From: a virus
IMG/VR virus record: IMGVR_UViG_3300038423_000085
Coordinates: 46,409-110,408 of that record
Strand: one strand, 5' to 3'
Length of the DNA: 64,000 bases
The notes under the pieces are model-generated. The model saw nothing but the letters and a program-made list of their open reading frames with translations, was not told the origin of the DNA and did not search any database. A program made the translations under genes and the position numbers. This document shows, one piece after another, positions 8,482 to 51,033 of the stretch (positions within the stretch are counted from its first letter, which is position 1; each line of letters opens with the position of its first letter).

Positions 8482-10420
8482 ACATCCTGCATTCATTCAG
8501 ACTTTCTTCGATAGCTACCGGGCTAAGGAAGCTCACGTCTTCATTTTCCATGGAAACGTGAACGACTTCCCGAATAACTCCGGCCGGCGCGGTGATCTGC
8601 GCAGGGCTCTCGCTCTATCTTGCGATACTCCAACGATGATGCTGGAGTGCAAGGACGACGAGCAGAAGAAAGAAGTGAACAAGGTGGCTCGTATTCTGGC
8701 GTATTATACGATGTCCAATGGCCTTGAGTTCGCTAGCCCGGAGAGCAACAATCTCTGGCGCCAAGTCATGAAGCAGTACATCAAGGACATGATGCCCGCT
8801 ACGAGCGACACAGCCCTCGATGATCAGATCAAGGATCTGGAAAAGCCGTCGAACTTTGACATGGCTTTGAACACCTTGAACATCTGGTTCACTGCCTCCA
8901 AGAGATTGCATCAACACAATCAGAAGGTTGATGCCTCCAAGAAGGGGAGTAAGCTCCCTGATCCTCTGTTTACGATCGTGTTCTTCGATGGCGATGCTAT
9001 CTTCCCGGCCGGCCAGATGTCTCAGCTGGCTAGCGATCGCGCGTCCATTGTGAACATTCGAAGCTGGGCCCGTGATGAAGCGCTTGGTAACAAGAACCGT
9101 GTCATCATAGTGACCCGACATATCTCTGATATCCATGAGTCTATTCGCGGTGGCGAGTCTGGTGTCAGGGCCATCCTGATTCCCAAGCCCACCTTGAAAG
9201 ACCGTGAAGAGTGGTTGACCAACTTTGACGCCAGCTTGAAAGAGCGCGCCCAGAAGGGCTCTCCTCAGAAGCTGGGAGGCAAGGAAGTGACCTGTATTGA
9301 ATACGCGCCTGGGTTTGATGCCCATACGTTTAGCATTCAAGCGGCAGGGCTTTCGCGCAAGCAGATGGAAAACATCTTCATGCGTGCCCAGTTGGATCAT
9401 GAACCCATTGACTTCCCATTGGTCAGAGCTTTGAAGACCAAGGCACTGGAGGAAGAGTATGGTGGTCTCGTGGATTTCCGCGAACCCGAACACGGGTTTG
9501 ATAAAGTTGGGGGGCACGAACACCTCAAGCGCTACTTTCAGCGGAAGATTATTGCTCCGCTCAAGAAGGGTGACAAGAGGACTTGTTCCCGTGGGGTACT
9601 TCTCACTGGACCTCCGGGCACTGGAAAGACGGCCATCACTCTGGCTATGGCGAAGGAAGCTGGTGTAAACTTCATGATCGCGCACCTCGCGCGATTGTTC
9701 GGAGGTCTCGTTGGAGAGACAGAAAGTAACACTCAGAAGTTTATCGAGGCTGCTGACTCCGCGGCTCCCGTTATCGTATTTATTGATGAACTTGAGTCGG
9801 TGCTTTCGGCTGGCCGCACATCTGTCGGTGACTCGGGGACATCGTCTCGTGTATTCAACTCGATCATGACATGGTTGTCCGATGAATCCCGTTCGGGTCG
9901 TATCGTCGTTGTTGGCGCCACGAACCGTCCGGACCTATTGGACTCCGCCTTGATTCGTTCTGGTCGTTTCGATGCCATTCTGCCCGCGCTGCCACCCGCA
10001 GCTGGCGATGCCAAAGGGCGGTTGGAGATCTTAAAGGCCCTGACGAAGAAACAAGGATTCAAGTTTGCTCCTGAGCTCTCCAAGACTTTGGAGTCTCATG
10101 AGGAAGGTATTGGAAAGATGCTGCATGATCAACGGATATGGACTGGAGCTGAGATGGAGGTGGTCCTGAAAGAGGCCATCGACAACGCATGCTTCGACAA
10201 TCGTGGGGCCGTCGGCCTCGCCGATTGGAATCAGGCCTTCCATGACGTGCTGCCATCTACACGTGAAGTGGAAAAGATGATCGACCTGTCGCTTCTGTTC
10301 GTGAACCATCTGGGCTACTGTCCAGAAGATTGGCGTGAACGCGCGCAGAAGAAGGGTGAGATCATGAGCTCGATCAAATCGGGCTACGAAGACGGGACGA
10401 TCTCGGACAGAGACGTCTAA
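8441..10420 (+). CDS. AAA-family ATPase (Ycf46-like)
   Basis: 659 residues. The C-terminal half is a classical AAA module: Walker A GPPGTGKTA at about 391, Walker B VIVFIDELES near 444, sensor GATNRPDLLD near 492 and an arginine-finger RSGRFD near 506. The N-terminal 350 residues are unlike the module (HVFIFHGNVNDFPN, then KKLHQHN and DRASIVNIRSWA), resembling the degenerate first domain of Ycf46-type proteins. AAA proteins form hexamers that remodel proteins. Paired with DUF1257 and DUF2997, it is probably the motor of that set. Ends SDRDV although no gene starts within 45 bases, so that motif is not explained by a downstream ribosome site here. Confidence 0.87.
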   Translation: MAEATTQPTNGASEHPAFIQTFFDSYRAKEAHVFIFHGNVNDFPNNSGRRGDLRRALALSCDTPTMMLECKDDEQKKEVNKVARILAYYTMSNGLEFASPESNNLWRQVMKQYIKDMMPATSDTALDDQIKDLEKPSNFDMALNTLNIWFTASKRLHQHNQKVDASKKGSKLPDPLFTIVFFDGDAIFPAGQMSQLASDRASIVNIRSWARDEALGNKNRVIIVTRHISDIHESIRGGESGVRAILIPKPTLKDREEWLTNFDASLKERAQKGSPQKLGGKEVTCIEYAPGFDAHTFSIQAAGLSRKQMENIFMRAQLDHEPIDFPLVRALKTKALEEEYGGLVDFREPEHGFDKVGGHEHLKRYFQRKIIAPLKKGDKRTCSRGVLLTGPPGTGKTAITLAMAKEAGVNFMIAHLARLFGGLVGETESNTQKFIEAADSAAPVIVFIDELESVLSAGRTSVGDSGTSSRVFNSIMTWLSDESRSGRIVVVGATNRPDLLDSALIRSGRFDAILPALPPAAGDAKGRLEILKALTKKQGFKFAPELSKTLESHEEGIGKMLHDQRIWTGAEMEVVLKEAIDNACFDNRGAVGLADWNQAFHDVLPSTREVEKMIDLSLLFVNHLGYCPEDWRERAQKKGEIMSSIKSGYEDGTISDRDV

Positions 10421-14798: not shown

Positions 14799-14898
14799 CC
14801 CTGAGTGGTGTATTGGTTTTTGGGCAATCATGCAGGCCGTCCATGGAGCACGTCGGTCCTGAATACCGAAGGGCAAGGTTCGAATCCTTGCTTGGGGA
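14799..14898 (+). tRNA. tRNA-like element, anticodon position TGA (Ser?), oversized D loop
   Basis: A cloverleaf can be drawn: acceptor CCCTGAG/CTTGGGG with two G-U pairs, D stem GTGT/GCAC, anticodon stem TCGGT/ACCGA with loop CCTGAAT, and T arm CAAGG-TTCGAAT-CCTTG. The D loop is 36 bases instead of 7-11, no CCA follows, and position 33 is C. The bases TGGGCAATC in the long loop can also pair with 14708-14716. It may be a tRNA broken by an insertion, or a tRNA-shaped regulatory element before 14907. Confidence 0.4.
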
Positions 14899-41159: not shown

Positions 41160-41248
41160 TGCGGGGTCGACTAGTCAGGCCGATGTCGCCAGTCTCATAA
41201 ACTGGAACCGAAAGGGCACCGTGGGTTCGAATCCCACCTCCGCTACCA
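41160..41248 (+). tRNA. tRNA-Met(CAT), unusual variable region
   Basis: Acceptor TGCGGGG/CTCCGCT with a T1-T72 mismatch (initiator tRNAs also have a 1-72 mismatch), anticodon loop CTCATAA, T arm GTGGG-TTCGAAT-CCCAC, encoded CCA. The variable region is 15 bases with a CC-GAAA-GG mini-hairpin, longer than normal for Met or Ile. Could be fMet-like, elongator or Ile2. Confidence 0.8.
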
Positions 41249-41349
41249 TCTTAGTTGTAAGCCTAGGGGTAGCTTAAGATCGAAAGCCCCGGATAGTACC
41301 GGGAGATACCGGACCGAGACCGGGCCCCTAAACCTTTAAGGAGACGACC

Positions 41350-41547
41350 ATGAAACGAGTCGCAACTGTAGTTGCTAATGATGGAAACACACGTACGAAA
41401 ATCACGATCGAAGTGAACAACAAGGGACGTGATTTGACGCGCGACGAAGTGAAGCATGTAGTTGATCGCCTCACTGGTGACGTCTTCGCCGCGGTACAGA
41501 AGACTCCATACAGCAACTATCCCGTCACCGAAATCAAGGTGAAATAA
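41350..41547 (+). CDS. small hypothetical protein
   Basis: 65 residues, AAGGAGACG upstream. Charged beta-alpha pattern (ATVVANDGNTRTKITIEVNN, LTRDEVKHVVDRL). Unknown. Confidence 0.7.
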   Translation: MKRVATVVANDGNTRTKITIEVNNKGRDLTRDEVKHVVDRLTGDVFAAVQKTPYSNYPVTEIKVK

Positions 41548-41559
41548 GTTCTGCAGGCC

Positions 41560-41629
41560 GTAGGGTTGGTGCAATGGTTAGAATACCGGCTTTGGACCGG
41601 AGATATCCGTTCGATTCGGATACCCTGCA
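41560..41629 (+). tRNA. tRNA-Gln(TTG)
   Basis: Acceptor GTAGGGT/ACCCTGC, D stem GTG/TAC, anticodon loop CTTTGGA read as TTG, T arm ATCCG-TTCGATT-CGGAT. CCA is not encoded, unlike most tRNAs here. G37 is atypical for Gln. Confidence 0.8.
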
Positions 41630-41700
41630 ATGAGATTAGTGCCGACAGCTGTCCCAGTGCAACATTGGCGGCCGTTCTGGGGTCGGCCTTGGATTTATGT

Positions 41701-41778
41701 GCCGTGTTAACTCAGTCCGGTCAGAGTGCCTCTCTTACAAAGAGGAAGTCCGAGGTTCAAATCCTTGACGCGGTACCA
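41701..41778 (+). tRNA. tRNA-Val(TAC)
   Basis: Acceptor GCCGTGT/ACGCGGT, D stem ACTC/GAGT, anticodon stem CCTCT/AGAGG with loop CTTACAA, T arm CGAGG-TTCAAAT-CCTTG, encoded CCA. Confidence 0.9.
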
Positions 41779-41794
41779 GATTTAAAGAGGGCAG

Positions 41795-42136
41795 ATGTTA
41801 GAGACCCCAAAAGAAGTGCTCGGTGAGGGATATCCTCTGCCAACAGAGCAGGCGCGTAAGGAAACAGCGCCCATCTGGGAACGAGCATTTGAGATACATG
41901 CGACGGCACATGTAGGTGATAGTCGCTTCCACGAAGGGAGCATGCTCCCAGTGAGAGGAGATGAGTATCACAACGGTACTCCCTACTGTGACTGTTACAT
42001 GCGAGCCTGGCTGGAGTTTCATGATCCTGTAAAGATAGCAGAACCCCAGGCTATAGTGCGTGAGAAAGAACGACTACGCGAGCTAGAAGAAGAGAGACAG
42101 AAGTTCGCGATAGAATACTTTGAGAGAGTTGTATGA
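41795..42136 (+). CDS. hypothetical protein
   Basis: 113 residues, GAGGG upstream. DEYHNGTPYCDCYMRAWLEFH is a Cys/His-containing block; the C-terminus is a long charged helix (REKERLRELEEERQKFA). Overlaps the next gene by ATGA. Unknown. Confidence 0.72.
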   Translation: MLETPKEVLGEGYPLPTEQARKETAPIWERAFEIHATAHVGDSRFHEGSMLPVRGDEYHNGTPYCDCYMRAWLEFHDPVKIAEPQAIVREKERLRELEEERQKFAIEYFERVV

Positions 42137-43032
42137 TCATCGAGCAGGGTGAATGCAATCTTAAGGATTGGATCAAAGAGGTCGGCATGTCCGGCCGTAT
42201 GCAGTCTGTCCTTATTGCTTCTTTCCGCGGCGCTGATTCAGACGACTCACCGGAAGTAAAGAGAGTCGTACGTTGGATCCGTAAGCAGTGCATCAAGCTG
42301 AACAATCCAAGATCTCATTTCATGAGAGACACGGAGTTCATTGATATTAAAGCTCTTATGGATCAAGATGCCTGGCAATGGGATCGTTTGAAGACACACT
42401 TCTACGATCACCTGAAGCAGGCATTGGCAGTCATAGCATTCTTTCATCCTGATGAGTGGGTGCAGGCAAAAGCACTTAAGGCCTACCACGATCTGACAGA
42501 GCACGAGAGCATTGTGCCCGAGGACCGTGTAGACTTGGTCTCGCGATTGGCAGATACTAAACCGATCGCGCGCGGTGAATGGGTAGTGCAGGACTGGGTC
42601 CTGCAGTTGAGTGGTAAGATGCAATCAGCTTTGTTCTGCGCTATGCGCGGATCCGATATCTCTACGGAAGATGAAGTCCGAAGATTAACACGCTGGCTGC
42701 GTTGGGTAGTCATGAGAGATGTAATGCCAGAGTCGCATTACATGAAAGACAGAGAGTTTATGAGCTTAAAGGTCAGATTCGAAATGTATCCATCGGAGTG
42801 GGGTAACCTGCCGATTCACTTCCGGCACCACACCCGAGAAGCGCTCGAGATCGTGGGATACATGCATCCGGATAAAGACATCCGTGAACGCGCTCTGGCC
42901 GCGTATGAAGATATTTGTAAGAAGTCTAAGGGCAAGCCAGAAACAAAGTCCATCCTGGTAAATCGTATGAAAGATGAGCCGGGCAGGACTGCTGATCCAA
43001 ATCAGCAACGAACCAACCTTCCGGTAGCTTAA
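42133..43032 (+). CDS. two-repeat hypothetical protein
   Basis: 299 residues made of two similar halves. Repeat 1 has GRMQSVLIASFRG, SHFMRDTEFIDIKAL and FFHPDEWVQAKALKAY; repeat 2 has GKMQSALFCAMRG, SHYMKDREFMSLKVR and YMHPDKDIRERALAAY. Repeats are about 120 residues. Proteins with this unit are common in phage genomes but I know no function. A basic tail follows. Confidence 0.8.
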   Translation: MIIEQGECNLKDWIKEVGMSGRMQSVLIASFRGADSDDSPEVKRVVRWIRKQCIKLNNPRSHFMRDTEFIDIKALMDQDAWQWDRLKTHFYDHLKQALAVIAFFHPDEWVQAKALKAYHDLTEHESIVPEDRVDLVSRLADTKPIARGEWVVQDWVLQLSGKMQSALFCAMRGSDISTEDEVRRLTRWLRWVVMRDVMPESHYMKDREFMSLKVRFEMYPSEWGNLPIHFRHHTREALEIVGYMHPDKDIRERALAAYEDICKKSKGKPETKSILVNRMKDEPGRTADPNQQRTNLPVA

Positions 43033-43035
43033 CAC

Positions 43036-43111
43036 TGGTAGGTGGTGCAAATGGTAGTCACGCCGGGCCTTGAACCCGGAGATCCTGGTTCGAATCCAGG
43101 CCTACCAACCA
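43036..43111 (+). tRNA. tRNA-Gln(TTG), C33
   Basis: Acceptor TGGTAGG/CCTACCA, anticodon stem CCGGG/CCCGG, loop CCTTGAA giving TTG with C at position 33, T arm CCTGG-TTCGAAT-CCAGG, encoded CCA. Confidence 0.85.
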
Positions 43112-43112
43112 T

Positions 43113-43187
43113 GGGTTCGTAGCTTAAAGGTAGAGCAACCGCCTTTTAAGCGGTGGAATGCTGGTTCAAATCCAGCCGGACCCACCA
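43113..43187 (+). tRNA. tRNA-Lys(TTT)
   Basis: Acceptor GGGTTCG/CGGACCC, D stem GCT/AGC, anticodon stem ACCGC/GCGGT, loop CTTTTAA, T arm GCTGG-TTCAAAT-CCAGC, encoded CCA. Confidence 0.92.
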
Positions 43188-43188
43188 C

Positions 43189-43268
43189 GCTCCATTAGCT
43201 CAGCGGAAACCAAGAGCACTCGGCTACGGACCGAGGGGTCGGGAGTTCGAATCTCTCATGGAGCACCA
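43189..43268 (+). tRNA. tRNA-Arg(ACG)
   Basis: Acceptor GCTCCAT/ATGGAGC, D stem GCTC/GAGC, anticodon stem CTCGG/CCGAG, loop CTACGGA, T arm GGGAG-TTCGAAT-CTCTC, encoded CCA. An A34 anticodon normally needs deamination to inosine to read CGN fully. Confidence 0.9.
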
Positions 43269-43276
43269 AGTTTCGC

Positions 43277-43352
43277 GGGCTTGTAGCTCAGACGGAAGAG
43301 CAGCGGAGTTCTAACCCGCAGGCAGAGAGTTCGAATCTCTCCAAGCTCGCCA
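43277..43352 (+). tRNA. tRNA-Arg(TCT)
   Basis: Acceptor GGGCTTG/CAAGCTC, D stem GCTC/GAGC, anticodon loop GTTCTAA, stem with one A-C mismatch, T arm GAGAG-TTCGAAT-CTCTC, encoded CCA. Reads AGA/AGG. Confidence 0.88.
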
Positions 43353-43362
43353 AGATTTACGT

Positions 43363-43437
43363 TGCCTACTCGTTTAACTGGTAGGACGCCAGCCTCTGGA
43401 GCTGGATATGAAGGTTCGAGTCCTTCGAAGGCAACCA
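43363..43437 (+). tRNA. tRNA-Gln(CTG)
   Basis: Acceptor TGCCTAC/GAAGGCA (one mismatch), anticodon stem CCAGC/GCTGG, loop CTCTGGA read as CTG, T arm GAAGG-TTCGAGT-CCTTC, encoded CCA. G37 as in the tRNA at 41560. Confidence 0.82.
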
Positions 43438-43448
43438 CATATTTACTA

Positions 43449-43523
43449 GCCATGGTAGCTCCAATGTAGAGCTGCGCACCTGTAATGCGCGGGTTGGGGG
43501 TTCAAGTCCCTCCCATGGCTCCA
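43449..43523 (+). tRNA. tRNA-Thr(TGT), C33
   Basis: Acceptor GCCATGG/CCATGGC, D stem GCTC/GAGC with a short 7-base loop, anticodon stem GCGCA/TGCGC, loop CCTGTAA with C33, T arm GGGGG-TTCAAGT-CCCTC, encoded CCA. Confidence 0.88.
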
Positions 43524-43533
43524 CGAGGTCACA

Positions 43534-43746
43534 ATGAACCAAGGAAGACCAGCACCGAAGCAATGCCCGTCAGTGGGTCAAGGTGTCACCTTGGTTGCAG
43601 GCTACACCCAGATGATGCTGGGCGCCAGGGTGAACAAGACGTGGAACCCAACTACAAGACAGTGGGAGTTCATGAGCCGGCCGGCCCTCACAGAAGGAAC
43701 CAACGGCGGCAAGAGATTCGCATTTGGGCCATCTAAGCTGATCTAA
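43534..43746 (+). CDS. small hypothetical protein
   Basis: 70 residues from ATG 43534, GAGG upstream. Basic, Gly- and Thr-rich (VNKTWNPTTRQWEFMSRPALTEG). Unknown; sits between tRNAs. Confidence 0.65.
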   Translation: MNQGRPAPKQCPSVGQGVTLVAGYTQMMLGARVNKTWNPTTRQWEFMSRPALTEGTNGGKRFAFGPSKLI

Positions 43747-43749
43747 GTA

Positions 43750-43758
43750 TGGTATAAT
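43750..43758 (+). promoter_or_regulatory. extended -10 promoter-like motif
   Basis: TGGTATAAT right after the stop at 43746, no good -35. Would restart transcription inside the tRNA array. Confidence 0.5.
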
Positions 43759-43764
43759 GGGTTT

Positions 43765-43929
43765 GTGTTCAACCCAATCTATCCGACCTGCTCTAAGTGG
43801 TGGCGCGCTGTTTTCCGGCTGCGCACCATAGAAAGAGATGGAAGCTTTCAGATACGCTGTAGATTGGTGAAATCAGATAAGTGTTGTCGGTTCTATTGGT
43901 TAGTTATACGTAGGCAACTACTATACTAA
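43765..43929 (+). CDS. possible small basic protein
   Basis: 54 codons from GTG 43765, just 7 bases after the TATAAT, so any message from that promoter would be nearly leaderless. Product is basic and Cys-containing. It ends in TATACTAA of another promoter-like motif. Weakly supported. Confidence 0.3.
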   Translation: MFNPIYPTCSKWWRAVFRLRTIERDGSFQIRCRLVKSDKCCRFYWLVIRRQLLY

Positions 43930-43941
43930 TCAGGGGTACGA

Positions 43942-44015
43942 GCGAGGTTGGTATAGTGGTAGCACGTGACCTTGCCAAGGTCGAGGCACCGGTTCGAATC
44001 CGGTACTTCGCTCCA
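43942..44015 (+). tRNA. tRNA-Gly(GCC)
   Basis: Acceptor GCGAGGT/ACTTCGC, anticodon loop TTGCCAA, T arm ACCGG-TTCGAAT-CCGGT, discriminator T, encoded CCA. Confidence 0.9.
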
Positions 44016-44022
44016 GGATCTT

Positions 44023-44145
44023 ATGCTAGCTTATGCAATAACTTGCACTGTTCTAATGGCTGCTGTTTACTTCGCGCCATTCTGCAAGAAAGGGTTTCGA
44101 CCCGACCAATCACCAAAGTACACGGTGGGTCCTCTTAAGGGATAA
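44023..44145 (+). CDS. small membrane protein
   Basis: 40 residues from ATG 44023 (AGGA upstream). Hydrophobic first half with two cysteines (MLAYAITCTVLMAAVYFAPFC) and a basic tail. Squeezed between two tRNAs; plausible membrane or lipoprotein-like peptide. Confidence 0.45.
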   Translation: MLAYAITCTVLMAAVYFAPFCKKGFRPDQSPKYTVGPLKG

Positions 44146-44154
44146 TCGGGACCA

Positions 44155-44230
44155 GCGGCTGTGATGTTAACGGCCAGCATGTCTGCCTTCCAAGCAGAAT
44201 GTATCGGTTCGAATCCGATTAGCCGCTCCA
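44155..44230 (+). tRNA. tRNA-Gly(TCC)
   Basis: Acceptor GCGGCTG/TAGCCGC, D stem ATG/CAT, anticodon stem TCTGC/GCAGA, loop CTTCCAA, T arm ATCGG-TTCGAAT-CCGAT, encoded CCA. Confidence 0.92.
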
Positions 44231-44237
44231 AGCTCTC

Positions 44238-44322
44238 GAAGCACGGTAAGGGTCATGGCCCTACACGGACGCATACGGATGATGTACCATGAGCCGTCCG
44301 GCGCAGCCGCATTACGTGCTTC
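44238..44322 (+). ncRNA. three-way-junction RNA element
   Basis: GAAGCACG (44238-44245) pairs perfectly with CGTGCTTC (44315-44322). Inside are two hairpins: GTA-GGG/CCC-TAC (46-64) and CGGACG/CGTCCG (66-71 with 95-100). tRNA-sized but without a T loop or an anticodon arm. A processed ncRNA or tRNA-derived element. Confidence 0.45.
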
Positions 44323-44326
44323 CCGG

Positions 44327-44403
44327 GCCTCCGTAGCTCAGCCTAGCAGAGCACCGGGCATCTAACCCGGGGGTCATCCGCGAAACACGGATCGGGGGCT
44401 CCA
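44327..44403 (+). tRNA. tRNA-Arg-like (TCT), abnormal T loop and A33
   Basis: Acceptor GCCTCCG/CGGGGGC, D stem GCTC/GAGC, anticodon stem CCGGG/CCCGG with loop CATCTAA, T stem ATCCG/CGGAT, encoded CCA. The T loop is CGAAACA instead of TTCRANY and position 33 is A. Stems are intact, so it is not plainly decayed. Confidence 0.65.
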
Positions 44404-44408
44404 CGATC

Positions 44409-44612
44409 TTGCCTCTGGCTCCTCGTAAGAGGGGTAGTTCAAAGCTCACAGGGGCGCCAAGTGTAGTAGATGTAATCCGAGTCGCCGATCTTGACGACCT
44501 TCAAAGTGAGGTACACCGATGTTCAAACAACATCGGCACCGCCATCTTCATCATCGCCACTACGGAAGAGGGCTATATCTTCTACTGGAGTGGGAAGGTG
44601 ACGGAGTGGTAG
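44409..44612 (+). CDS. small hypothetical protein
   Basis: 67 residues if TTG 44409 is the start; no ribosome site is visible. The C-terminal part (CSNNIGTAIFIIATTEEGYIFYWSGKVTEW) looks like a genuine beta-rich peptide. Between a tRNA and the next gene. Uncertain. Confidence 0.5.
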   Translation: MPLAPRKRGSSKLTGAPSVVDVIRVADLDDLQSEVHRCSNNIGTAIFIIATTEEGYIFYWSGKVTEW

Positions 44613-44635
44613 TGTCTTCCTTAGGAGGAACGTTA

Positions 44636-45016
44636 ATGATTCAAGTATCAGACAGTTTGCTTTCAAATCTCGCGTTGGCACTCGTTGACCAGCTCGGTTT
44701 CCCAGCCAATCTGGATGGCGTAACTGCAGTATGGTCGATCGACAACGCGAATGTTGGTTCCATTGTGGGCAACAACTTCGCAGCTGTGTTCACACCTGGA
44801 ACAGATTTGACCGACGTCGGAACCATCACAGCAGCCGTGAGCATCAATGGCACGTTTGCTTTCAATGTAACCGTCCAGGTCCAGGTTGTATCTGGTGCAC
44901 CAGTGAGTGGTACAATCACACTGAGTGGCACTTCTCCTCTGCCGGCCGCTGCACCCGCAGCCCCAGCAGCTCCAGCAGCCCCTGCAGCCCCAGCGGCAAC
45001 AGGCGCAACAGCCTAA
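44636..45016 (+). CDS. Ig-like domain protein with Ala-Pro tail
   Basis: 126 residues, AGGAGG 8 bases before ATG 44636. LDGVTAVWSIDNANVGSIVG and DVGTITAAVSINGTF are a Big2/cadherin-like beta domain similar in style to the C-terminal domain of 38851-39990; the tail is repeats of AAPAAP. Probably a surface or virion decoration protein. Confidence 0.72.
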   Translation: MIQVSDSLLSNLALALVDQLGFPANLDGVTAVWSIDNANVGSIVGNNFAAVFTPGTDLTDVGTITAAVSINGTFAFNVTVQVQVVSGAPVSGTITLSGTSPLPAAAPAAPAAPAAPAAPAATGATA

Positions 45017-45029
45017 AGTAGTCCTAAGT

Positions 45030-45056
45030 CCTGAGGGGTGAGTAAGGCCCCTCAGG
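45030..45056 (+). terminator. hairpin terminator candidate
   Basis: CCTGAGGGG pairs perfectly over nine bases with CCCCTCAGG across a 9-base loop, 14 bases after the stop. No T run. The following 170 bases (to 45228) hold no gene I can support, only more short hairpins. Confidence 0.5.
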
Positions 45057-45228
45057 CAGAGATTAGAAGTATAAGATTGGTAGCGCGAAAAGCGACAGGT
45101 AGCCCCTCTGTATACCGAGGGCAGGTGCTGAATCGTCCCAGACGTGGGGTGATTTGGAAGTTGGTCCACCGGAAGGCCAGCGCGGTTGTCGTGTAAGCCG
45201 TGCGCTATTGATATTCCAAGAGGTTGCT

Positions 45229-45360
45229 ATGTGCACAATGAAGTGTCCTGTGTGCGGTAAGCAGGTTAGCAAACCTCAGCCTAAAGACGAGTTCGTCTGC
45301 CCATGTGGTTGGCGATCGGAAGCAAAAAAGAACAACGGAGAACATCATGAAGAACAGTAA
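45229..45360 (+). CDS. small zinc-ribbon protein
   Basis: 43 residues from ATG 45229 (AGAGG upstream). CPVCGK and CPCGWRS form a typical two-knuckle zinc ribbon. Unknown partner. Overlaps the next gene by 14 bases. Confidence 0.72.
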   Translation: MCTMKCPVCGKQVSKPQPKDEFVCPCGWRSEAKKNNGEHHEEQ

Positions 45361-45502
45361 CGGGTCTAAGACACCTCCAGCACAACTTAGCAAGACCCCG
45401 TATATCGGCGACCCGATCTTCGCGTCACCGACCACACACAAGGCAAAGGCCATCAAGCCTACTCAGCCGAAGGTGGCAAACTCGGGCGTCAAAAAGGGCT
45501 AA
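45347..45502 (+). CDS. small hypothetical protein
   Basis: 51 residues from ATG 45347 (ACGGAG upstream). Lys/Pro/Thr-rich and disordered. Unknown. Confidence 0.6.
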   Translation: MKNSNGSKTPPAQLSKTPYIGDPIFASPTTHKAKAIKPTQPKVANSGVKKG

Positions 45503-45515
45503 GCCGGCAACGGTA

Positions 45516-45638
45516 ATGGCCCTCAGAAAGAAAGCGAAGAAGGCCTCATGGTTTAACCATGGGGCCACTCGACTAGCCGCGGCTACAGTACAAATGTACA
45601 AGCCGCAGAAGCCATTACCGCAACCCAAAGCAAAGTAA
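45516..45638 (+). CDS. small basic peptide
   Basis: 40 residues, ATG 45516. MALRKKAKKASWFNHGATRL is strongly basic and could bind nucleic acid. Weak ribosome site. Confidence 0.5.
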   Translation: MALRKKAKKASWFNHGATRLAAATVQMYKPQKPLPQPKAK

Positions 45639-45649
45639 TACTCCCACCT

Positions 45650-45677
45650 TTGGCTTGCCGTCCTGGCAGGCTATAAT
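45650..45677 (+). promoter_or_regulatory. sigma-70-type promoter before tRNA-Asn
   Basis: TTGGCT, 16-base spacer, TATAAT, 19 bases upstream of tRNA-Asn. Second good promoter of the RNA region. Confidence 0.6.
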
Positions 45678-45695
45678 ACAACATAGAGATTCTAC

Positions 45696-45771
45696 TGGAG
45701 TGTGGCTCAACCGGTACAGCATCTGGCCGTTAACCAGACACTTGGGGGTTCGAGTCCCTCTGCTCCAGCCA
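45696..45771 (+). tRNA. tRNA-Asn(GTT), C33
   Basis: Acceptor TGGAGTG/TGCTCCA, D stem GCT/AGC, anticodon stem TCTGG/CCAGA, loop CCGTTAA with C33, T arm GGGGG-TTCGAGT-CCCTC, discriminator G, encoded CCA. Confidence 0.88.
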
Positions 45772-45776
45772 AGCTT

Positions 45777-46175
45777 ATGAAAGAGACGCCCAAAGTAGAG
45801 AAGCGCATATACGTTGTCCTCCCTTCATTCGTCATATCACCGACGATGTTCCTAAGAGAGGTCATTCCGATGTCCTGCGGCCGCTGTATAGCACAGGCAT
45901 GTCATGTGGTATCGAAGCTGAAGCTGAGACTTAAACTGGATCCCGATGAAGAACACACAACCATCGTCCTCAAAGTCGTTGACAGCGACGAGCTGGAAAA
46001 AGTCCGTGATAAGATCTCACGCTCGCGTCTTCCGTGGGAAGAGTTTCGCGATACCAACCCCGGGTACTATAAGACTGAAAAGTCCATCCTAACCGCGGTT
46101 GCTGTTTGTTGTTCGAGAAAGAAAGGTAAGTCACTGTTCCATGGCTACGATGCCTGGCAGTGTGATGTGGAGTAA
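45777..46175 (+). CDS. Pth2-like peptidyl-tRNA hydrolase
   Basis: 132 residues from ATG 45777, 6 bases after tRNA-Asn. MSCGRCIAQACHVVSKL near 32-48 resembles the G-K-x-A-x-Q-x-x-H-A helix of Pth2, and HTTIVLKVVDSDELEKVRDKI, then LPWEEFRDTNPGYY and LTAVAV follow in the Pth2 order. Pth2 frees tRNA from peptidyl-tRNA dropped by ribosomes. With 27 tRNAs and a tmRNA around, a role in recycling tRNA is natural. The longer upstream frame runs through the tRNA and is rejected. Confidence 0.72.
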   Translation: MKETPKVEKRIYVVLPSFVISPTMFLREVIPMSCGRCIAQACHVVSKLKLRLKLDPDEEHTTIVLKVVDSDELEKVRDKISRSRLPWEEFRDTNPGYYKTEKSILTAVAVCCSRKKGKSLFHGYDAWQCDVE

Positions 46176-46273
46176 ACTCGTGAAGAACGATACAATGGGC
46201 GGATGCATTCGATTGCTAGGCCTGCTTAGTTAGCAGGCCCGCGGACTGCCGTCCCCGGACCTTGTAGTTCAAG

Positions 46274-46352
46274 GCGCTGGTGGACAAAATGGCAAAGCCG
46301 CCTCGTTCAGACCGAGGAGATTTTGTGGGTTCGAATCCCACCCAGCGCACCA
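46274..46352 (+). tRNA. tRNA-Leu(CAG)
   Basis: Acceptor GCGCTGG/CCAGCGC, anticodon stem CCTCG/CGAGG, loop TTCAGAC, T arm GTGGG-TTCGAAT-CCCAC, encoded CCA. The variable region is only 7 bases, short for Leu, and the D stem is imperfect. Confidence 0.82.
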
Positions 46353-46365
46353 AGTTTATCGATGT

Positions 46366-46454
46366 GCTGGAGTGGCGTAACTGGCAGCCGCGCAGGGCTC
46401 AAGCCCCTGTGGCCCTAGAAAGCCGTGAGAGTTCGAATCTCTCCTTCAGCACCA
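46366..46454 (+). tRNA. tRNA-Leu(CAA)
   Basis: Acceptor GCTGGAG/CTTCAGC, D stem GCG/CGC, anticodon stem CAGGG/CCCTG, loop CTCAAGC, long variable arm closed by GGC/GCC, T arm GAGAG-TTCGAAT-CTCTC, encoded CCA. Confidence 0.9.
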
Positions 46455-46455
46455 A

Positions 46456-46540
46456 GTACCTGTGCTGAAACTGGTAGCCAGCCGCGGTTGAGAGCCGCGT
46501 GCCGCAAGGCGTGGAGGTTCGAATCCTCTCAGGTACACCA
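46456..46540 (+). tRNA. tRNA-Leu(GAG)
   Basis: Acceptor GTACCTG/CAGGTAC, D stem CTG/CAG, anticodon stem CGCGG/CCGCG, loop TTGAGAG, variable arm GCC-GCAA-GGC, T arm GGAGG-TTCGAAT-CCTCT, encoded CCA. Confidence 0.9.
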
Positions 46541-46545
46541 AGATT

Positions 46546-46863
46546 ATGATACCAACGCTTCTCAAGATCGCAGTGGGTATTCTGATTCCGGCCGCAACAG
46601 CAGACGGAGTCAGCACAGCTCACTTTCTGAGGAAAGGTTACACTGAAGCAGATCGAATCATGATCTGGATCTACGGCACCGATGATCCTTCAGTGAAGAG
46701 GATGTGGGTTCGTAGCAGCATTGCCGTAGCACTCGAGGTCCTTGTAGCAGGTATTGCAGCGCATTACTGGACACCTGCAGGATACGGATTTGGAGTTGGG
46801 TATCTGTGCCAGGCAGCTTATCACGTCTACTGTACAGTGAACAACTATAGGAACGTGCCATGA
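46546..46863 (+). CDS. small multi-span membrane protein
   Basis: 105 residues. Spans near 5-20, 58-76 and 79-97. TADGVSTAHFLRKGYTEAD and VALEVLVAGIAAHYW correspond in position to GDTYYTGVGLAKGLKEMNP and EAAAITVVGGVFMAY of 47046-47399, so the two are probably paralogues of a DUF5658-like family. Function unknown. Confidence 0.72.
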   Translation: MIPTLLKIAVGILIPAATADGVSTAHFLRKGYTEADRIMIWIYGTDDPSVKRMWVRSSIAVALEVLVAGIAAHYWTPAGYGFGVGYLCQAAYHVYCTVNNYRNVP

Positions 46864-46913
46864 AAGGCGGACAGAGCAGCGGAGTCGGTTATCGTAGCGC
46901 TTAATGAGCGCAC

Positions 46914-47021
46914 GGAGAGGTGCGCTTCCATGGAGGCGCAGCAGAGACGGGGATCTGCACTTGGCCGTAACCCAAGGTCCCAACGGGACTAGAGAAGGTT
47001 CAAATCCTTCCGTCTCCACCA
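46914..47021 (+). tRNA. tRNA-Tyr(GTA), C33, with an extra hairpin
   Basis: Acceptor GGAGAGG/CGTCTCC (6 of 7 pairs), D arm CGC/GCG, then an additional perfect hairpin GCAGA-GACGGGGA-TCTGC (46941-46958), then anticodon stem CTTGG/CCAAG with loop CCGTAAC, long variable arm GTCCC-AAC-GGGAC, T arm GAAGG-TTCAAAT-CCTTC, encoded CCA. The extra hairpin makes it 108 bases. Confidence 0.72.
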
Positions 47022-47045
47022 AGTTTAGAAGTACAAGGAGCAAAT

Positions 47046-47399
47046 ATGTTTGATCCATCGACAGATCCAAGAACGTGGCCCAATCAACCGGGCTTCTGGG
47101 AATCACTCGGTATCTTCGTTCTGTATGCTTACATGCTCGTTGCTATCCTGGGCGACACGTATTACACAGGGGTCGGACTGGCAAAGGGATTGAAGGAAAT
47201 GAATCCTATCAATCGCTGGCTCTTCCCCAAGTTGGGTCAAGCATTGACTTGTTTTGTTGAAGCCGCGGCAATCACAGTAGTAGGTGGAGTCTTCATGGCC
47301 TATAGTATGCCGCTGGCTTATGGTTATTGGGGACTCATCGCAGCCCTCGAAACCTGGATGGTTTATCGTAATCGCAAGATCCTAGGATTGAGTTTGTAA
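47046..47399 (+). CDS. small multi-span membrane protein
   Basis: 117 residues, AAGGAG upstream. Spans near 21-38, 66-85 and 90-105. GDTYYTGVGLAKGLKEMNPINRWL resembles DUF5658-like proteins. Likely paralogue of 46546-46863. Confidence 0.75.
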   Translation: MFDPSTDPRTWPNQPGFWESLGIFVLYAYMLVAILGDTYYTGVGLAKGLKEMNPINRWLFPKLGQALTCFVEAAAITVVGGVFMAYSMPLAYGYWGLIAALETWMVYRNRKILGLSL

Positions 47400-47445
47400 T
47401 GACGCGCGCACTAGAGCCACGACCCGAACGACCGTAAAAGGTCAC

Positions 47446-47519
47446 CGGGGTGTGTTCTAGTGGTAGGATCCATGCGTCGGAAGCATGGGGCGGAGGTTCG
47501 ATTCCTCCCACCCCGACCA
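47446..47519 (+). tRNA. tRNA-Pro(CGG)
   Basis: Acceptor CGGGGTG/CACCCCG, anticodon stem CATGC/GCATG, loop GTCGGAA, T arm GGAGG-TTCGATT-CCTCC, encoded CCA. Confidence 0.92.
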
Positions 47520-47528
47520 GATTTCCGT

Positions 47529-47603
47529 GGGGCAGTGGCGCAACGGGAGCGCAGATGCTTTGCAAGCATAAGGTTGTGGGTTCGATTCCCATCTGCTCCA
47601 CCA
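47529..47603 (+). tRNA. tRNA-Ala(TGC)
   Basis: Acceptor GGGGCAG/CTGCTCC, D stem GCGC/GCGC, anticodon loop TTTGCAA, T arm GTGGG-TTCGATT-CCCAT, encoded CCA. Confidence 0.92.
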
Positions 47604-47613
47604 AGGATTGACA

Positions 47614-47826
47614 ATGATCATCGAATCATACGTAACTGAAGTAGTAGATACCGACACGAAGCAGAAGAGAGCTTTTGTCGGTGTAGTTGGTGGCGAAGTA
47701 CTGTTGGATGTTCCCTTCAAGGATACCGATAACGAGAATCTGATCAAGACTCTCGTATGCGCTATCAGGGTTCTCGAACAGAAGCTGGTAGATGCTGGCC
47801 AGCCGCCATTTGGTGGTATAGTTTAA
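47614..47826 (+). CDS. small hypothetical protein
   Basis: 70 residues from ATG 47614 (AAGGA 6 bases upstream). Beta-rich first half (IESYVTEVVDTDTKQKRAFVG) and a helix. Unknown. Confidence 0.68.
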   Translation: MIIESYVTEVVDTDTKQKRAFVGVVGGEVLLDVPFKDTDNENLIKTLVCAIRVLEQKLVDAGQPPFGGIV

Positions 47827-47829
47827 CGC

Positions 47830-47907
47830 AGGCCGGTCGTTTAGCCCGGTCCAGGACCTCGGTCTCCAAAACCGATGACGGTGGTTCAAATCCATCCTGG
47901 CCTGCCA
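47830..47907 (+). tRNA. tRNA-Trp(CCA)
   Basis: Acceptor AGGCCGG/CTGGCCT, anticodon stem TCGGT/ACCGA, loop CTCCAAA, T arm GGTGG-TTCAAAT-CCATC, discriminator G, encoded CCA. Confidence 0.92.
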
Positions 47908-47916
47908 AAGGATTTG

Positions 47917-47925
47917 TGGTATAAT
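47917..47925 (+). promoter_or_regulatory. extended -10 promoter-like motif
   Basis: TGGTATAAT between tRNA-Trp and tRNA-Ser; no clear -35. Confidence 0.5.
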
Positions 47926-47988
47926 AAAAACATGAACGATACAGCCAACTCGAGTAGTAGAAGCTCATCACGATCTACCCGTGTATAC

Positions 47989-48078
47989 GGAGGGTTGGCT
48001 GAGTTTGGAAAGGCGCCAGGTTGCTAACCTGAGGCCTGGTGAAAGCCAGCGTAGGTTCAAATCCTACACCCTCCGCCA
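47989..48078 (+). tRNA. tRNA-Ser(GCT)
   Basis: Acceptor GGAGGGT/ACCCTCC, anticodon loop TTGCTAA, long variable arm, T arm GTAGG-TTCAAAT-CCTAC, discriminator G, encoded CCA. Confidence 0.92.
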
Positions 48079-48084
48079 AGTTTA

Positions 48085-48173
48085 GGAGGGCAGCGCTGAA
48101 TGGTCGGCAACGGTCCCGAAAACCGAGACTCGTCGAAAGGCGAGACAGAGTTCGATTCTCTGGCCCTCCTCCA
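48085..48173 (+). tRNA. tRNA-Ser(CGA), C33
   Basis: Acceptor GGAGGGC/GCCCTCC, anticodon stem CGGT/ACCG, loop CCCGAAA with C33, variable arm CTCG/CGAG, T arm CAGAG-TTCGATT-CTCTG, encoded CCA. Confidence 0.87.
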
Positions 48174-48175
48174 AA

Positions 48176-48249
48176 CCCGCGGTCGTTCAATGGTAGGACC
48201 CCTGACTGAAGATCAGGAGATGATGGTTCGAATCCATCCCAAGGGACCA
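48176..48249 (+). tRNA. tRNA-Phe(GAA)
   Basis: D stem GTTC/GGAC, anticodon stem CCTGA/TCAGG, loop CTGAAGA, T arm GATGG-TTCGAAT-CCATC, encoded CCA. The acceptor CCCGCGG/CCAAGGG has two mismatches in the middle. Confidence 0.82.
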
Positions 48250-48256
48250 CAAGTTT

Positions 48257-48427
48257 ATGAGTAGTACAGAAGATCTGATTTACAGGCTGCGCAAGCGCGC
48301 TGAGATACGAAGGCAGATAACTACACGCAAGAGCGTACAAGAAGGAAAGCCTGATCGTATCGCCGATCTTCTGGAAGAAGCAGCCAATGAGCTGCAAAGA
48401 TTATTGGATTTGACCTGTAGTAGATGA
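48257..48427 (+). CDS. small helical phage protein
   Basis: 56 residues. DLIYRLRKRAEIRRQ and RIADLLEEAANELQRLL match a short helical protein type that recurs in many phages, role unknown to me. Starts seven bases after tRNA-Phe. Confidence 0.72.
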   Translation: MSSTEDLIYRLRKRAEIRRQITTRKSVQEGKPDRIADLLEEAANELQRLLDLTCSR

Positions 48428-48657
48428 GTAGTCCTTGTATTCTGGCTCTGCCATTCGGAAATAGCAGAGCGCGTCAATCGGCACGGTGTTGTACAATCCG
48501 TGGTGGCGCTCACGGATTACAACGAGACTAATCATCTAGGTCAGTTGTTCTTAGGTCTGCAGGAGCTGTAGTCACCACTGCATAAGCTGGTGCCCCCACA
48601 TTACGGGGGAGAGCTGGCGTCGCCTTTGAGTGCTACAGTTAGACCTTCGTATTTCGC
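48428..48657 (+). other. structured intergenic stretch, no gene
   Basis: No convincing frame. Three perfect hairpins: GCTCTGC/GCAGAGC, AATCCGTG/CACGGATT and CCCCC/GGGGG. Probably a non-coding RNA or processing region between two tRNAs. Confidence 0.45.
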
Positions 48658-48736
48658 GGTGATATGGGACAGTCTGGCCTACTCCGCTCCCCTGTCACGG
48701 GAAACCTCGCCGGTTCAAATCCGGCTATCACCGCCA
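48658..48736 (+). tRNA. tRNA-Asp(GTC)
   Basis: Acceptor GGTGATA/TATCACC, D stem GGA/TCC, anticodon loop CTGTCAC, T arm GCCGG-TTCAAAT-CCGGC, discriminator G, encoded CCA. Confidence 0.9.
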
Positions 48737-48737
48737 A

Positions 48738-48812
48738 GGCCCTATCGTCTATGGGATAGGACTCCGGCTTCTCAAGCCGGCAACCCGGGTTCGATTCCCG
48801 GTGGGGTCACCA
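48738..48812 (+). tRNA. tRNA-Glu(CTC)
   Basis: Acceptor GGCCCTA/TGGGGTC, D stem GTC/GAC, anticodon stem CCGGC/GCCGG, loop TTCTCAA, T arm CCGGG-TTCGATT-CCCGG, encoded CCA. Confidence 0.92.
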
Positions 48813-48846
48813 GTTTAACTTAGTCAAGGTCGGAGGACCAAGTACT

Positions 48847-49293
48847 ATGAGTAATGAAAAGAAAGACGCTACGCTTGGTATGTCACACGGTACGGCTACA
48901 AATAGATTACGTAAGCAGATAATGTTTAGATTACTGCAACGTTTGAATGAGAACTTTTGCTTTCGTTGTGGATGTGAAATACAATCAGTAGATGATCTAA
49001 GCATCGAACATAAGCAGCCTTGGGAAGGTATCAGTGCTGACTTATTCTGGGATGAAGAGAACATTGCCTTTTCTCACTTGCGATGCAATAGACCAGATAG
49101 ACCAAGCGGTAGAAATGCGAATGCCAAGATTCCACCAATAGAAGGTGTATGCTGGTGCGTTCCTGGCGATCATTTTGCTCCAGTCGATAACTTCTACAAG
49201 AATGAAAGTAGACCGACAGGATTACAGAACTGGTGCAAGGATCATAGACCTCCTCGATTAGGAGGCTACCACAAGTTTGCGATGCTCTGTTAG
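48847..49293 (+). CDS. HNH endonuclease
   Basis: 148 residues. CFRCGCEI near 37, SIEHKQPWEG (the HH/EH core near 58) and AFSHLRCNRPDR (N and zinc C near 79-83) form an HNH domain; a second Cys cluster (CWCVPGDH, WCKDH) follows. GMSHGTATNRLRKQI at the N-terminus is typical of phage homing HNH enzymes. Codons are AT-rich compared with neighbours, consistent with a mobile gene inserted in the tRNA array. Confidence 0.85.
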   Translation: MSNEKKDATLGMSHGTATNRLRKQIMFRLLQRLNENFCFRCGCEIQSVDDLSIEHKQPWEGISADLFWDEENIAFSHLRCNRPDRPSGRNANAKIPPIEGVCWCVPGDHFAPVDNFYKNESRPTGLQNWCKDHRPPRLGGYHKFAMLC

Positions 49294-49585
49294 TCAGCCG
49301 TGTATACGGAACATCATCGCCGATACGGTGACGTTAATCAACAGGAGTGTAACGAGCCTCGAAAACTCGTTTCGTCTGAAAAACCTCCGACCCTTGAGTT
49401 TAGATGTGTCGAGCGAGGACACATCGCATGGCTATCTGGGCGCCTCGAGCCGAAGGGTAGCCAGAGTTTAGCGGGACTAAGTAGCTAGTGCTTTCCCCAT
49501 CGGCTGCTACCTTGCCGTCGGCGGCATGGCCAGGGGAAAGGATCCTGTTCGCGACTGGATCTCACCCGCGGGTTTAGGAGACACA
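49294..49585 (+). ncRNA. structured region after HNH gene
   Basis: About 290 bases with strong perfect stems: GATGTGTC/GACACATC (near 49403-49425), GGCTA/TAGCC and CTTTCCCC/GGGGAAAG (49491-49540) enclosing TGCCG/CGGCA. Short frames here (for example GTG 49300) look random. Next to a homing-type nuclease, a group I intron remnant or another mobile RNA is possible. Confidence 0.45.
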
Positions 49586-49744
49586 ATGTTTACACTTCTC
49601 AAGGTTGTAGTGGAAGGGATTCTTACCCTTCTTGTTTTCTTTGGCGGCATGAAGTTCCAGCAACACTACCCTAACTTCATTGCGCGCGTTGATAGTATCC
49701 TAGCATGGATCAAGAACATCCTGCCAGGTACAACGAAGTCTTAA
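49586..49744 (+). CDS. small membrane protein
   Basis: 52 residues from ATG 49586 (AGGAG upstream). One span at 3-22 (TLLKVVVEGILTLLVFFGGM) and an amphipathic tail. Holin-like size, but no lysis genes adjoin. Confidence 0.65.
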   Translation: MFTLLKVVVEGILTLLVFFGGMKFQQHYPNFIARVDSILAWIKNILPGTTKS

Positions 49745-49746
49745 GT

Positions 49747-49821
49747 GCCCAAGTCGTACATGGGTTAGGATCCCAATCTTTCAAGTTGGGGAACAGAGTT
49801 CGAGTCTCTGCTCGGGTACCA
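49747..49821 (+). tRNA. tRNA-Glu(TTC)
   Basis: Acceptor GCCCAAG/CTCGGGT (one mismatch), anticodon stem CCAAT/GTTGG, loop CTTTCAA, T arm CAGAG-TTCGAGT-CTCTG, encoded CCA. Confidence 0.9.
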
Positions 49822-49822
49822 A

Positions 49823-49972
49823 ATGAACTTCAAGCGAAAGCGACCAAAGAACGCACGCAGTGGCTGCCTAATGTGCAAGCCACATAAGATGAATGGAATC
49901 AAACATACTTACCATGTCAAAGGTATCAGAGGCAAGGTGAACATCAAGGATTTAGAACGGAGAGTGGCCTAG
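49823..49972 (+). CDS. small basic phage protein with CxxC
   Basis: 49 residues. MNFKRKRPKNARSGCLMCKPHKMNG is like a short phage protein type with C-x-x-C-K-P-H/Q-K-x-N-G. The gene starts just after tRNA-Glu and its stop lies inside the next tRNA acceptor, so the two overlap by 15 bases. Confidence 0.65.
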   Translation: MNFKRKRPKNARSGCLMCKPHKMNGIKHTYHVKGIRGKVNIKDLERRVA

Positions 49973-50036
49973 TCCGGTTTAAGGCGCGTGCCTTGGGCGC
50001 ACGAGATCGAGAGTTCAAATCTCTCCTCTCCGACCA
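49958..50036 (+). tRNA. tRNA-Pro(TGG)
   Basis: Acceptor CGGAGAG/CTCTCCG, D stem GCCT/AGGC, anticodon stem CGTGC/GCACG, loop CTTGGGC, T arm GAGAG-TTCAAAT-CTCTC, encoded CCA. Confidence 0.92.
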
Positions 50037-50687: not shown

Positions 50688-51033
50688 GGGGACGTCCCGG
50701 TTTCGACAGATAGCGGAACGACCTGAATGCATGCCGGTGCCTGACGACCGTAACTGTTGGAAAACTTTAACTGCAGAGTTTGAAGAACTGCCGTTGGCTG
50801 CTTAAAGCAGCCACGTCCTACCTGACGATGCCTATTGATTGGGCTAGGGCGTAAACTAGTGGGCTAAGCTTCCCGGGTCAGCTCCCTGCGAGCCGGGCGG
50901 ATGAAAACCAAGAAGGGATACTGGGACCTCACTTGTCCGGTCTGTAGGCCCCTGAGAAACCGAACGGAATAAGCATGTAGTATTCATAAGTAATGCTTTC
51001 TGGACACGGGTTCAACTCCCGTCGTCTCCACCA
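50688..51033 (+). ncRNA. ssrA: transfer-messenger RNA (tmRNA)
   Basis: The 5' end GGGGACGTCCCGGTTTCGACAG and the 3' end (CACGGGTTCAACTCCCG, then CGTCTCC-ACCA) are the tRNA-like ends of tmRNA; GGGGACG pairs with CGTCTCC. The tag frame resumes at GCA near 50774 after TTTAACT and reads AEFEELPLAA then TAA, ending in the LAA degron seen in bacterial tags. It rescues stalled ribosomes and marks the peptide for proteolysis. 346 bases; encoded on the same strand as the tRNAs. Confidence 0.93.

Follow-up and report, generated by a model that had tools for sequence, protein, structure and literature searches.

The phage described here carries transfer RNA (tRNA) genes in which the U that normally stands at position 33, next to the anticodon, is replaced by C. 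Five of them lie in a 64,000-nucleotide stretch of viral DNA (the window; positions 46,409 to 110,408 of IMG/VR record IMGVR_UViG_3300038423_000085), and a sixth, tRNA-Ile(GAU), lies outside it, so that C33 is present in 6/32 tRNAs of the phage. With moderate confidence, we interpret these genes as mostly working phage tRNAs with a recurrent, function-compatible U33-to-C33 change, which would reflect mainly a constraint for a pyrimidine at this position and be driven in part by guanine-plus-cytosine (GC) bias.

The record that holds the window (G000; 110,408 bases) has a counterpart of 215,395 bases (G001; IMGVR_UViG_3300018004_000004) with a 100% identical tRNA array, representing a second assembly of the same phage. 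Judging from the coordinate offsets between the two records, the genome would be circular, with a length of about 215.4 kb. Transfer RNAs were detected with ARAGORN, with Rfam model RF00005 using the gathering score as cut-off, and by cloverleaf folding. The whole genome encodes 32 tRNAs covering all 20 amino acids, together with an Arg-like relic and a transfer-messenger RNA (tmRNA). The tRNAs with C33 are the following:

43036..43111, plus strand: tRNA-Gln(UUG), loop CCTTGAA, C33, rest canonical, CCA encoded (ARAGORN; Rfam 57.7 bits)
43449..43523, plus strand: tRNA-Thr(UGU), loop CCTGTAA, C33, short D loop without G18G19, C14 (ARAGORN; Rfam 53.7 bits)
45696..45771, plus strand: tRNA-Asn(GUU), loop CCGTTAA, C33, rest canonical (ARAGORN; Rfam 50.9 bits)
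46932..47021, plus strand: tRNA-Tyr(GUA), class II, loop CCGTAAC, C33, C8 (complete cloverleaf fold; Rfam 39 bits in the whole records)
48085..48173, plus strand: tRNA-Ser(CGA), class II, loop CCCGAAA, C33, A8, anticodon stem with four of five pairs (fold)
G000:13606 = G001:205087, outside the window: tRNA-Ile(GAU), loop TCGATAA, C33, otherwise canonical (ARAGORN; Rfam on the whole record)

C33 in the five window tRNAs had been proposed in a first-pass annotation made from the sequence alone. For Gln, Thr and Asn this was confirmed: ARAGORN places a C directly before the anticodon, each gene has a 5-bp anticodon stem and CCA, and all three exceed the Rfam gathering score in the window scan, as do Ile and Tyr in the whole-record searches. 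The tRNA-Tyr was missed by ARAGORN and by the window-only Rfam scan, but was found above the cut-off in the whole records (G000:93340-93426 and G001:69382-69468; 39 bits). Its C33 was borne out, although its fold begins about 18 nt downstream of 46914, where the gene had been thought to start. The tRNA-Ser(CGA) folds into a cloverleaf but is absent from the ARAGORN calls and from the Rfam lists of the window and of both whole records, and is the least certain of the five. As the first-pass annotation had also noted, the other tRNAs of the window keep T33 (all 21 remaining plus-strand ARAGORN calls), the exception being an Arg-like element at 44327, which has A33. The C33 loop of a further tRNA-like element, placed at 14799, was found as well, but this element has no CCA and falls below the Rfam cut-off. 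The codons concerned are used by the phage, with AAC at 25.9 and ATC at 30.3 per 1000.

We considered the possibility that the C33 genes are degenerate tRNA genes on their way out. The Thr, Tyr and Ser(CGA) tRNAs do have further core oddities, and the array contains degenerate neighbors (Gln 41560 and Arg-like 44327). The poorly formed elements of the window are as follows:

41560..41629, plus strand: second tRNA-Gln(UUG), T33, without CCA, poor pairing, probably degenerate (ARAGORN)
44327..44403, plus strand: Arg(UCU)-like element, loop CATCTAA (A33), aberrant T loop CGAAACA, probably a degenerate tRNA
14839..14898 (G000:61247-61306), plus strand: tRNA-like stretch, loop CCTGAAT (UGA anticodon, C33), without CCA (23.5 bits, below the Rfam cut-off)

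However, the Ile, Gln and Asn tRNAs are canonical apart from C33, and a wider sample showed neither purines at position 33 nor extra damage. In a loop-blind cloverleaf scan of viral contigs, restricted to class I tRNAs other than Asn, 738 tRNAs had T at position 33, 37 had C, and none had a purine. The 37 C33 tRNAs were as sound as the 738 T33 tRNAs with respect to U8 (0.89 and 0.94, respectively), A14 (0.92 and 0.91), a seven-pair acceptor stem (0.89 and 0.89) and the GG of the D loop (1.0 and 0.99). At position 8, by comparison, the deviants among T33 tRNAs were mostly transversions (A 31, G 11, C 6), and U8 deviated in 42/557 phage tRNAs, compared to 0/24 in the bacterial sample. The soundness of the C33 tRNAs, the restriction of deviants to C, and the abundance of transversions at position 8 together argue that position 33 is constrained to be a pyrimidine. 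In this respect C33 resembles a functional variant more than a sign of decay. Degeneration is quite an unlikely explanation. The first-pass annotation had likewise argued against decay, which holds in the wide sample (37 C and no A or G) and is weaker in this phage alone, where three of six cores are odd.

To put these numbers in context, we collected tRNAs from viral and cellular contigs. These samples were ascertained by tRNA-Asn patterns and CCA ends, and the counts from the Asn pattern scans are counts among the matches listed rather than collection-wide totals. Transfer RNAs that failed the cloverleaf filter, duplicates, and a copy of this phage (L188) were dropped before counting. A class I tRNA-Asn pattern with C33 matched at least 119 stretches on viral contigs, with 85 well-formed tRNAs among the matches listed. 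Of at least 120 viral matches to a pattern that allowed either C33 or T33, 80 comprised 78 T33 loci, a single well-formed C33 (L161) and an off-register C33 (L160), and the C33 share of phage tRNA-Asn in IMG/VR is roughly 1% among the matches listed. The T33-scan loci are themselves partly imperfect (102/122 T33 matches well formed in at least 120 loci). Outside the Asn isotype, and excluding this phage, C33 was found in 13/578 tRNAs on T33-Asn contigs and in 26/340 on C33-Asn contigs (Fisher P = 1.4e-4). The probability of at least 6/32 is about 7e-5 against the former background and 0.03 against the latter; six of 32 is high even for phages.

Among 299 genomes of Pseudomonadota, the C33-Asn pattern gave a match in two, and neither match was judged well formed: that in Collimonas (G046, the genome used as centre) fails the stem test, while that in G383, judged by eye, is an off-register sequence of the kind seen in Vibrio-type matches. 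The T33 pattern matched 39/40 genomes. This control covers one phylum and one isotype. Genome contigs without C33-Asn supplied 88 well-formed tRNAs, none of which deviated at position 33. In a scan of genome contigs from bacteria and archaea, however, 17 well-formed C33-Asn genes were present among at least 120 matches in 118 stretches, and on these 17 contigs, which may or may not be viral, C33 was also present in 13/65 well-formed non-Asn tRNAs. Some of the 17 lie in tRNA arrays, seven of the stretches having at least nine tRNAs. C33 is rare in the bacteria sampled and recurrent in viruses. A partial literature search found no paper whose title or abstract describes a C33 or U33 change in phage tRNAs.

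Several other C33 tRNAs were observed in these collections. A contig binned with the Asgard archaeon Candidatus Sigynarchaeum (L518:13066-14836; G032:C108) has 20 ARAGORN tRNA calls, with C33 in eight of the first nine (Gly, Gly, Glu, His, Gln, Gln, Trp and Asn), not all of them well formed; no clear phage hallmark was found in ten open reading frames (ORFs) of this contig, of which L424 is a copy. Viral contigs L132, L134, L152 and L154 encode tRNAs with a long variable arm, a GUU anticodon and C33, and Acinetobacter phage ME3 (L112:149-222) has a C33 tRNA with the amber-reading anticodon CUA (loop CCCTAAA).

C33 is accompanied by high GC content. The median GC was 0.51 in C33-Asn contigs and 0.42 in the others (P = 9e-8), and when each was corrected for the other in a joint model, GC (P = 9e-4) and Asn state (P = 0.008) both had an effect, which shows that some phages allow or favor C33 more than others. 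Nine features were tested within contigs, using 42 contigs with 417 non-Asn tRNAs, 69 of which had C33. (This set omits L188; L261, a relative of L196; L424, the copy of L518; the second Gln gene at 41560; and the Arg-like element.) A purine at position 35 was enriched with C33 (46 observed, 34.3 expected, P = 0.001), and there was a slight preference for C32 (P = 0.03). No association was found with A38 or with base 34.

The change has very likely arisen many times, judging from a tree of tRNA-Asn genes from which base 33 had been removed. This tree requires at least 43 changes of state over 185 tips, 73 of which are C33; it is a poor tree, being built from short genes, and the count is without a shuffled control. 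Two related phages of about 160 kb, L196 and L261, have nine and ten C33 among 31 and 33 ARAGORN calls, respectively, not all well formed. All 31 tRNAs that could be matched between them by anticodon and similarity keep their state (nine C33 and 22 T33) at 67-100% identity, and at that divergence the fact that all nine C33 persist carries limited weight on its own. Their C33 tRNAs include three Ser isoacceptors, and the two phages form a natural pair for testing C33. Comparison across phages, omitting L196-L261 pairs, showed that for 10/15 anticodons tested, no C33 tRNA had a C33 tRNA as its nearest neighbor in another contig.

Closer to the phage itself, a strain at 93-94% was found as short contigs only, and there was no tRNA match in G024, G025 or G026. 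Searches against named phages gave a 33-base match to Tunturiibacter phage Tunturi_5 and remote terminase and portal matches. Comparison with related phages, which had been suggested as a check, was possible at the level of distant relatives (portal about 35%), and these have almost only T33 in the ARAGORN calls (8/8 in G014, 23/24 in G004, 2/2 in G012 and 1/1 in G013, the remaining G004 call being G33), while G007 has one weak Lys call with C33 and Acinetobacter phage ME3 the CUA tRNA with C33 noted above. Tunturi_5 (L001, L071) has T33 throughout, save one Pro-like A33; it gave 38 tRNA matches with E up to 0.001, and the feature tables for two stretches of its record list coding sequences only.

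How might C33 be compatible with function? Selection on phage tRNAs would be weaker than on host tRNAs, and the variant could therefore be tolerated. Replacement of U33 by C would only weaken the U-turn, through loss of the bond from U33 N3-H to phosphate 36, and loops that have other means of stabilization might tolerate it. One such means would be a bond from the 2'-OH of residue 33 to N7 of residue 35, for which a purine at position 35 can serve as acceptor; this bond would steady the U-turn. Purines at position 33 would be purged, while a T-to-C bias in GC-rich phages would supply the mutations. The U33 N3-H bond of the U-turn is described in the cited part of PMC8080527, and mutation of base 33 is said, in the part of PMC3664417 cited here, to degrade translational efficiency markedly. 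Natural, functional C33 is nevertheless reported for mammalian initiator tRNA-Met (PMC8080527) and for tRNA-Cys of Sulfolobales (PMC7668247), in the passages cited. These are single, special cellular tRNAs, whereas C33 here affects several elongator isotypes and has repeated origins.

A number of observations weigh against this interpretation. The clustering of C33 within phages beyond the effect of GC (P = 0.008) is predicted by plain drift only if phages differ in constraint. The purine-35 trend, one of nine features, was first noticed on overlapping data, and three of the six C33 tRNAs of this phage have U35. Purines do occur at position 33 in ARAGORN calls, as G33 in a tRNA-Phe(AAA) of L172 and a tRNA-Ile(AAU) of G004, and as A33 in the Pro-like call of Tunturi_5, which has a 3-bp stem. 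In this phage, core oddities are found in 3/6 C33 tRNAs compared to 3/26 T33 tRNAs (P = 0.06). The C33 gene is also the sole phage copy for Ile, Thr, Asn and Tyr, so that a weakened tRNA would lack a phage backup. Finally, three of four C33 tRNAs for both Thr(UGU) and Pro(UGG) have a C33 tRNA as nearest relative in another phage (P = 0.002), with weaker clustering for Asn and Met (P = 0.02 and 0.04), a pattern that suggests spread or retention.

As the first-pass annotation proposed, C33 might instead allow these tRNAs to escape an anticodon nuclease. It would remove a contact or cleavage determinant, so that the phage tRNAs would survive while the host cuts its own tRNAs for the same six amino acids. 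We regard this as possible, but doubtful. In its favor, the phage has a candidate tRNA repair system (see below) and a tRNA complement of its own that covers all 20 amino acids, and the clustering of C33 within phages exceeds what GC accounts for. T4 answers the PrrC nuclease by Pnkp/Rnl1 tRNA repair, not by C33; like T4, this phage carries apparent relatives of both Pnkp and Rnl1. Known defenses also act on some of the isotypes concerned: according to the cited parts of the respective papers, AriB of the PARIS system targets Lys-UUU, Thr-UGU and Asn-GUU (PMC12409363), Cas13a prefers Lys-UUU, Glu-UUC, Gln-UUG and Thr-UGU (PMC11042736), and retron-Eco7 depletes tRNA-Tyr (PMC11555353). Such defenses would make nuclease escape plausible for single isotypes. 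However, the passages cited contain no U33-dependent nuclease, and none covers the set of isotypes found here. AriB is described as cutting between positions 40 and 41, and the phage tRNA that corresponds to its main target, Lys-UUU, has T33. A word search of the Cas13a paper (PMC11042736), in the text available, found no mention of U33.

The comparison with phages known to face tRNA cleavage is similarly divided. As in the T5 tRNAs that meet AriB, Thr-UGU and Asn-GUU are changed near the anticodon; in T5 Lys, changes at positions 39 and 41 stop or reduce cleavage, with further distal determinants inferred (PMC12409363, passages cited), whereas the change here is at position 33 and spares Lys-UUU. 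The phage tRNAs described by van den Berg et al. 2023 (PMC10264068) likewise form an array with unusual anticodon-loop bases in a phage that probably faces tRNA cleavage. In the passages cited, however, those mutations match known cleavage sites and the hosts are known, while here base 33 is changed in many isotypes; the word U33 was not found in a search of the text available from that paper. Within our own data, the isotype sets that carry C33 differ between C33-rich phages, C33 in isoacceptors does not co-vary beyond chance (four pairs, 2.4 expected, P = 0.21), and C33 tracks GC content. There was also no association with a full-length Pnkp: among contigs of 100 kb or more, 5/23 with C33-Asn and 2/13 from the T33 scan encode one (P = 1). 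(This was a small test, drawn from 42 of 84 C33-Asn contigs, plus L196 and L261, and from 50 of at least 120 T33-scan loci unfiltered for form, and both selections favored long contigs.) L196 and L261, the most C33-rich related pair, gave no Pnkp match in their two records. The comparisons of isoacceptors and of Pnkp, like those of U36 and A36 given below, did not favor targeted selection, and nuclease escape gains no specific support from our data.

The candidate repair genes lie outside the window. A full-length, T4-type Pnkp is predicted at G001:187787-188794 (L014:3787-4794), matching phrog_505 over positions 2-293 of 295 (E 3e-65) and PDB entry 1ltq over query positions 45-333 (E 7e-28), and would thus provide the bifunctional kinase-phosphatase of T4-type tRNA repair. 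An Rnl1-family ligase at G001:198737-199954 matches phrog_562 (E 2e-55) and PDB entry 2c5u (E 3e-11), although it scores 51 of 242 bits, below the NCBIfam equivalog cut-off. A second RNA ligase is nearest to the DRB0094 type, below the cut-off of that model, and a Thg1-type enzyme and a SpoU-type methylase are encoded nearby. These tRNA-maintenance genes fall within about 14 kb (G001:187787-201466), where there is also a tRNA-His (G001:189594). Their presence suggests that the hosts of this phage damage tRNA.

A different possibility is that C33 frees the tRNA from modification of A37. With U33, pairing to an unmodified A37 can close the loop. C33 cannot pair with A37, and a tRNA produced rapidly at a late stage of infection could then work without N6-threonylcarbamoyladenosine (t6A) or N6-isopentenyladenosine (i6A); alternatively, C33 might be kept in order to prevent t6A. 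The cited part of PMC9654439 reports that t6A prevents U33-A37 pairing and that C33 is an anti-determinant for the bacterial TsaD-TsaB-TsaE enzyme. All six C33 tRNAs here have A37, three have U36, and the within-contig comparison gives a mild enrichment of A37 with C33 (60 cases against 55.2 expected, P = 0.056). However, the same comparison shows no enrichment of U36 (24 cases against 22.3 expected, P = 0.35) or of A36 (10 against 13.7), and we consider this explanation unlikely. Because of the reported anti-determinant, C33 should nevertheless hinder formation of t6A37 in the ANN-reading tRNAs, which here are Ile, Thr and Asn.

It is very improbable that the mature tRNA regains U33 through C-to-U editing. 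In favor of editing, position 33 usually deviates to C, and one ORF of the window matches the cytidine/deoxycytidylate deaminase family in a Pfam scan that covered 43 of the 63 smaller ORFs, although a motif search for that ORF found nothing. The same scan yielded matches to dUTPase, Thy1 and thymidylate kinase, which make a dCMP deaminase the more likely identity, and an editor would be needed by many different phages. The scan also gave a peptidyl-tRNA hydrolase (PTH2) match.

The remaining features of the window are as follows:

41160..50036, plus strand: tRNA array of 26 tRNAs and the Arg-like element, with small ORFs interspersed (ARAGORN, Rfam)
50688..51033, plus strand: tmRNA with tag AEFEELPLAA (ARAGORN; Rfam 150 bits)

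The array opens with a CAU-anticodon tRNA (41160-41248) that has a 15-nt variable region and a T1-T72 mismatch, perhaps a class II-like Met, Ile2 or initiator tRNA; a normal elongator-like Met is found at G000:16194. ARAGORN also calls a tRNA-Arg on the minus strand (43052-43124), overlapping Gln and Lys genes in antisense; this call is in all likelihood spurious. Elsewhere in the window, an AAA ATPase resembles IetA of a defense system (8441-10420; E 2e-21, PADLOC-DB), and a helicase has weaker ZorD/DpdE-like matches (1845-4958; PADLOC-DB).

Our preferred interpretation of C33 as a tolerated, working variant leaves room for some phages, possibly including this one with its repair genes, to keep C33 because it also blunts an anticodon nuclease; in some phages, avoidance of A37 modification might likewise reinforce the change. 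More broadly, and more tentatively, many unrelated phages may use C33 as a general shield, with little loss of decoding, against anticodon nucleases that read U33 (or against U33-dependent modifiers of A37), to which this phage would add Pnkp/Rnl1 repair as a second layer. U33 is among the most constant bases in tRNA, and a pyrimidine exception constitutes a natural experiment on decoding, A37 modification or nuclease recognition. The combination of C33 with a purine at position 35 lends itself to testing in common laboratory phages such as T4 or T5, and C33 provides a sequence marker for phages whose tRNAs may resist defense enzymes.

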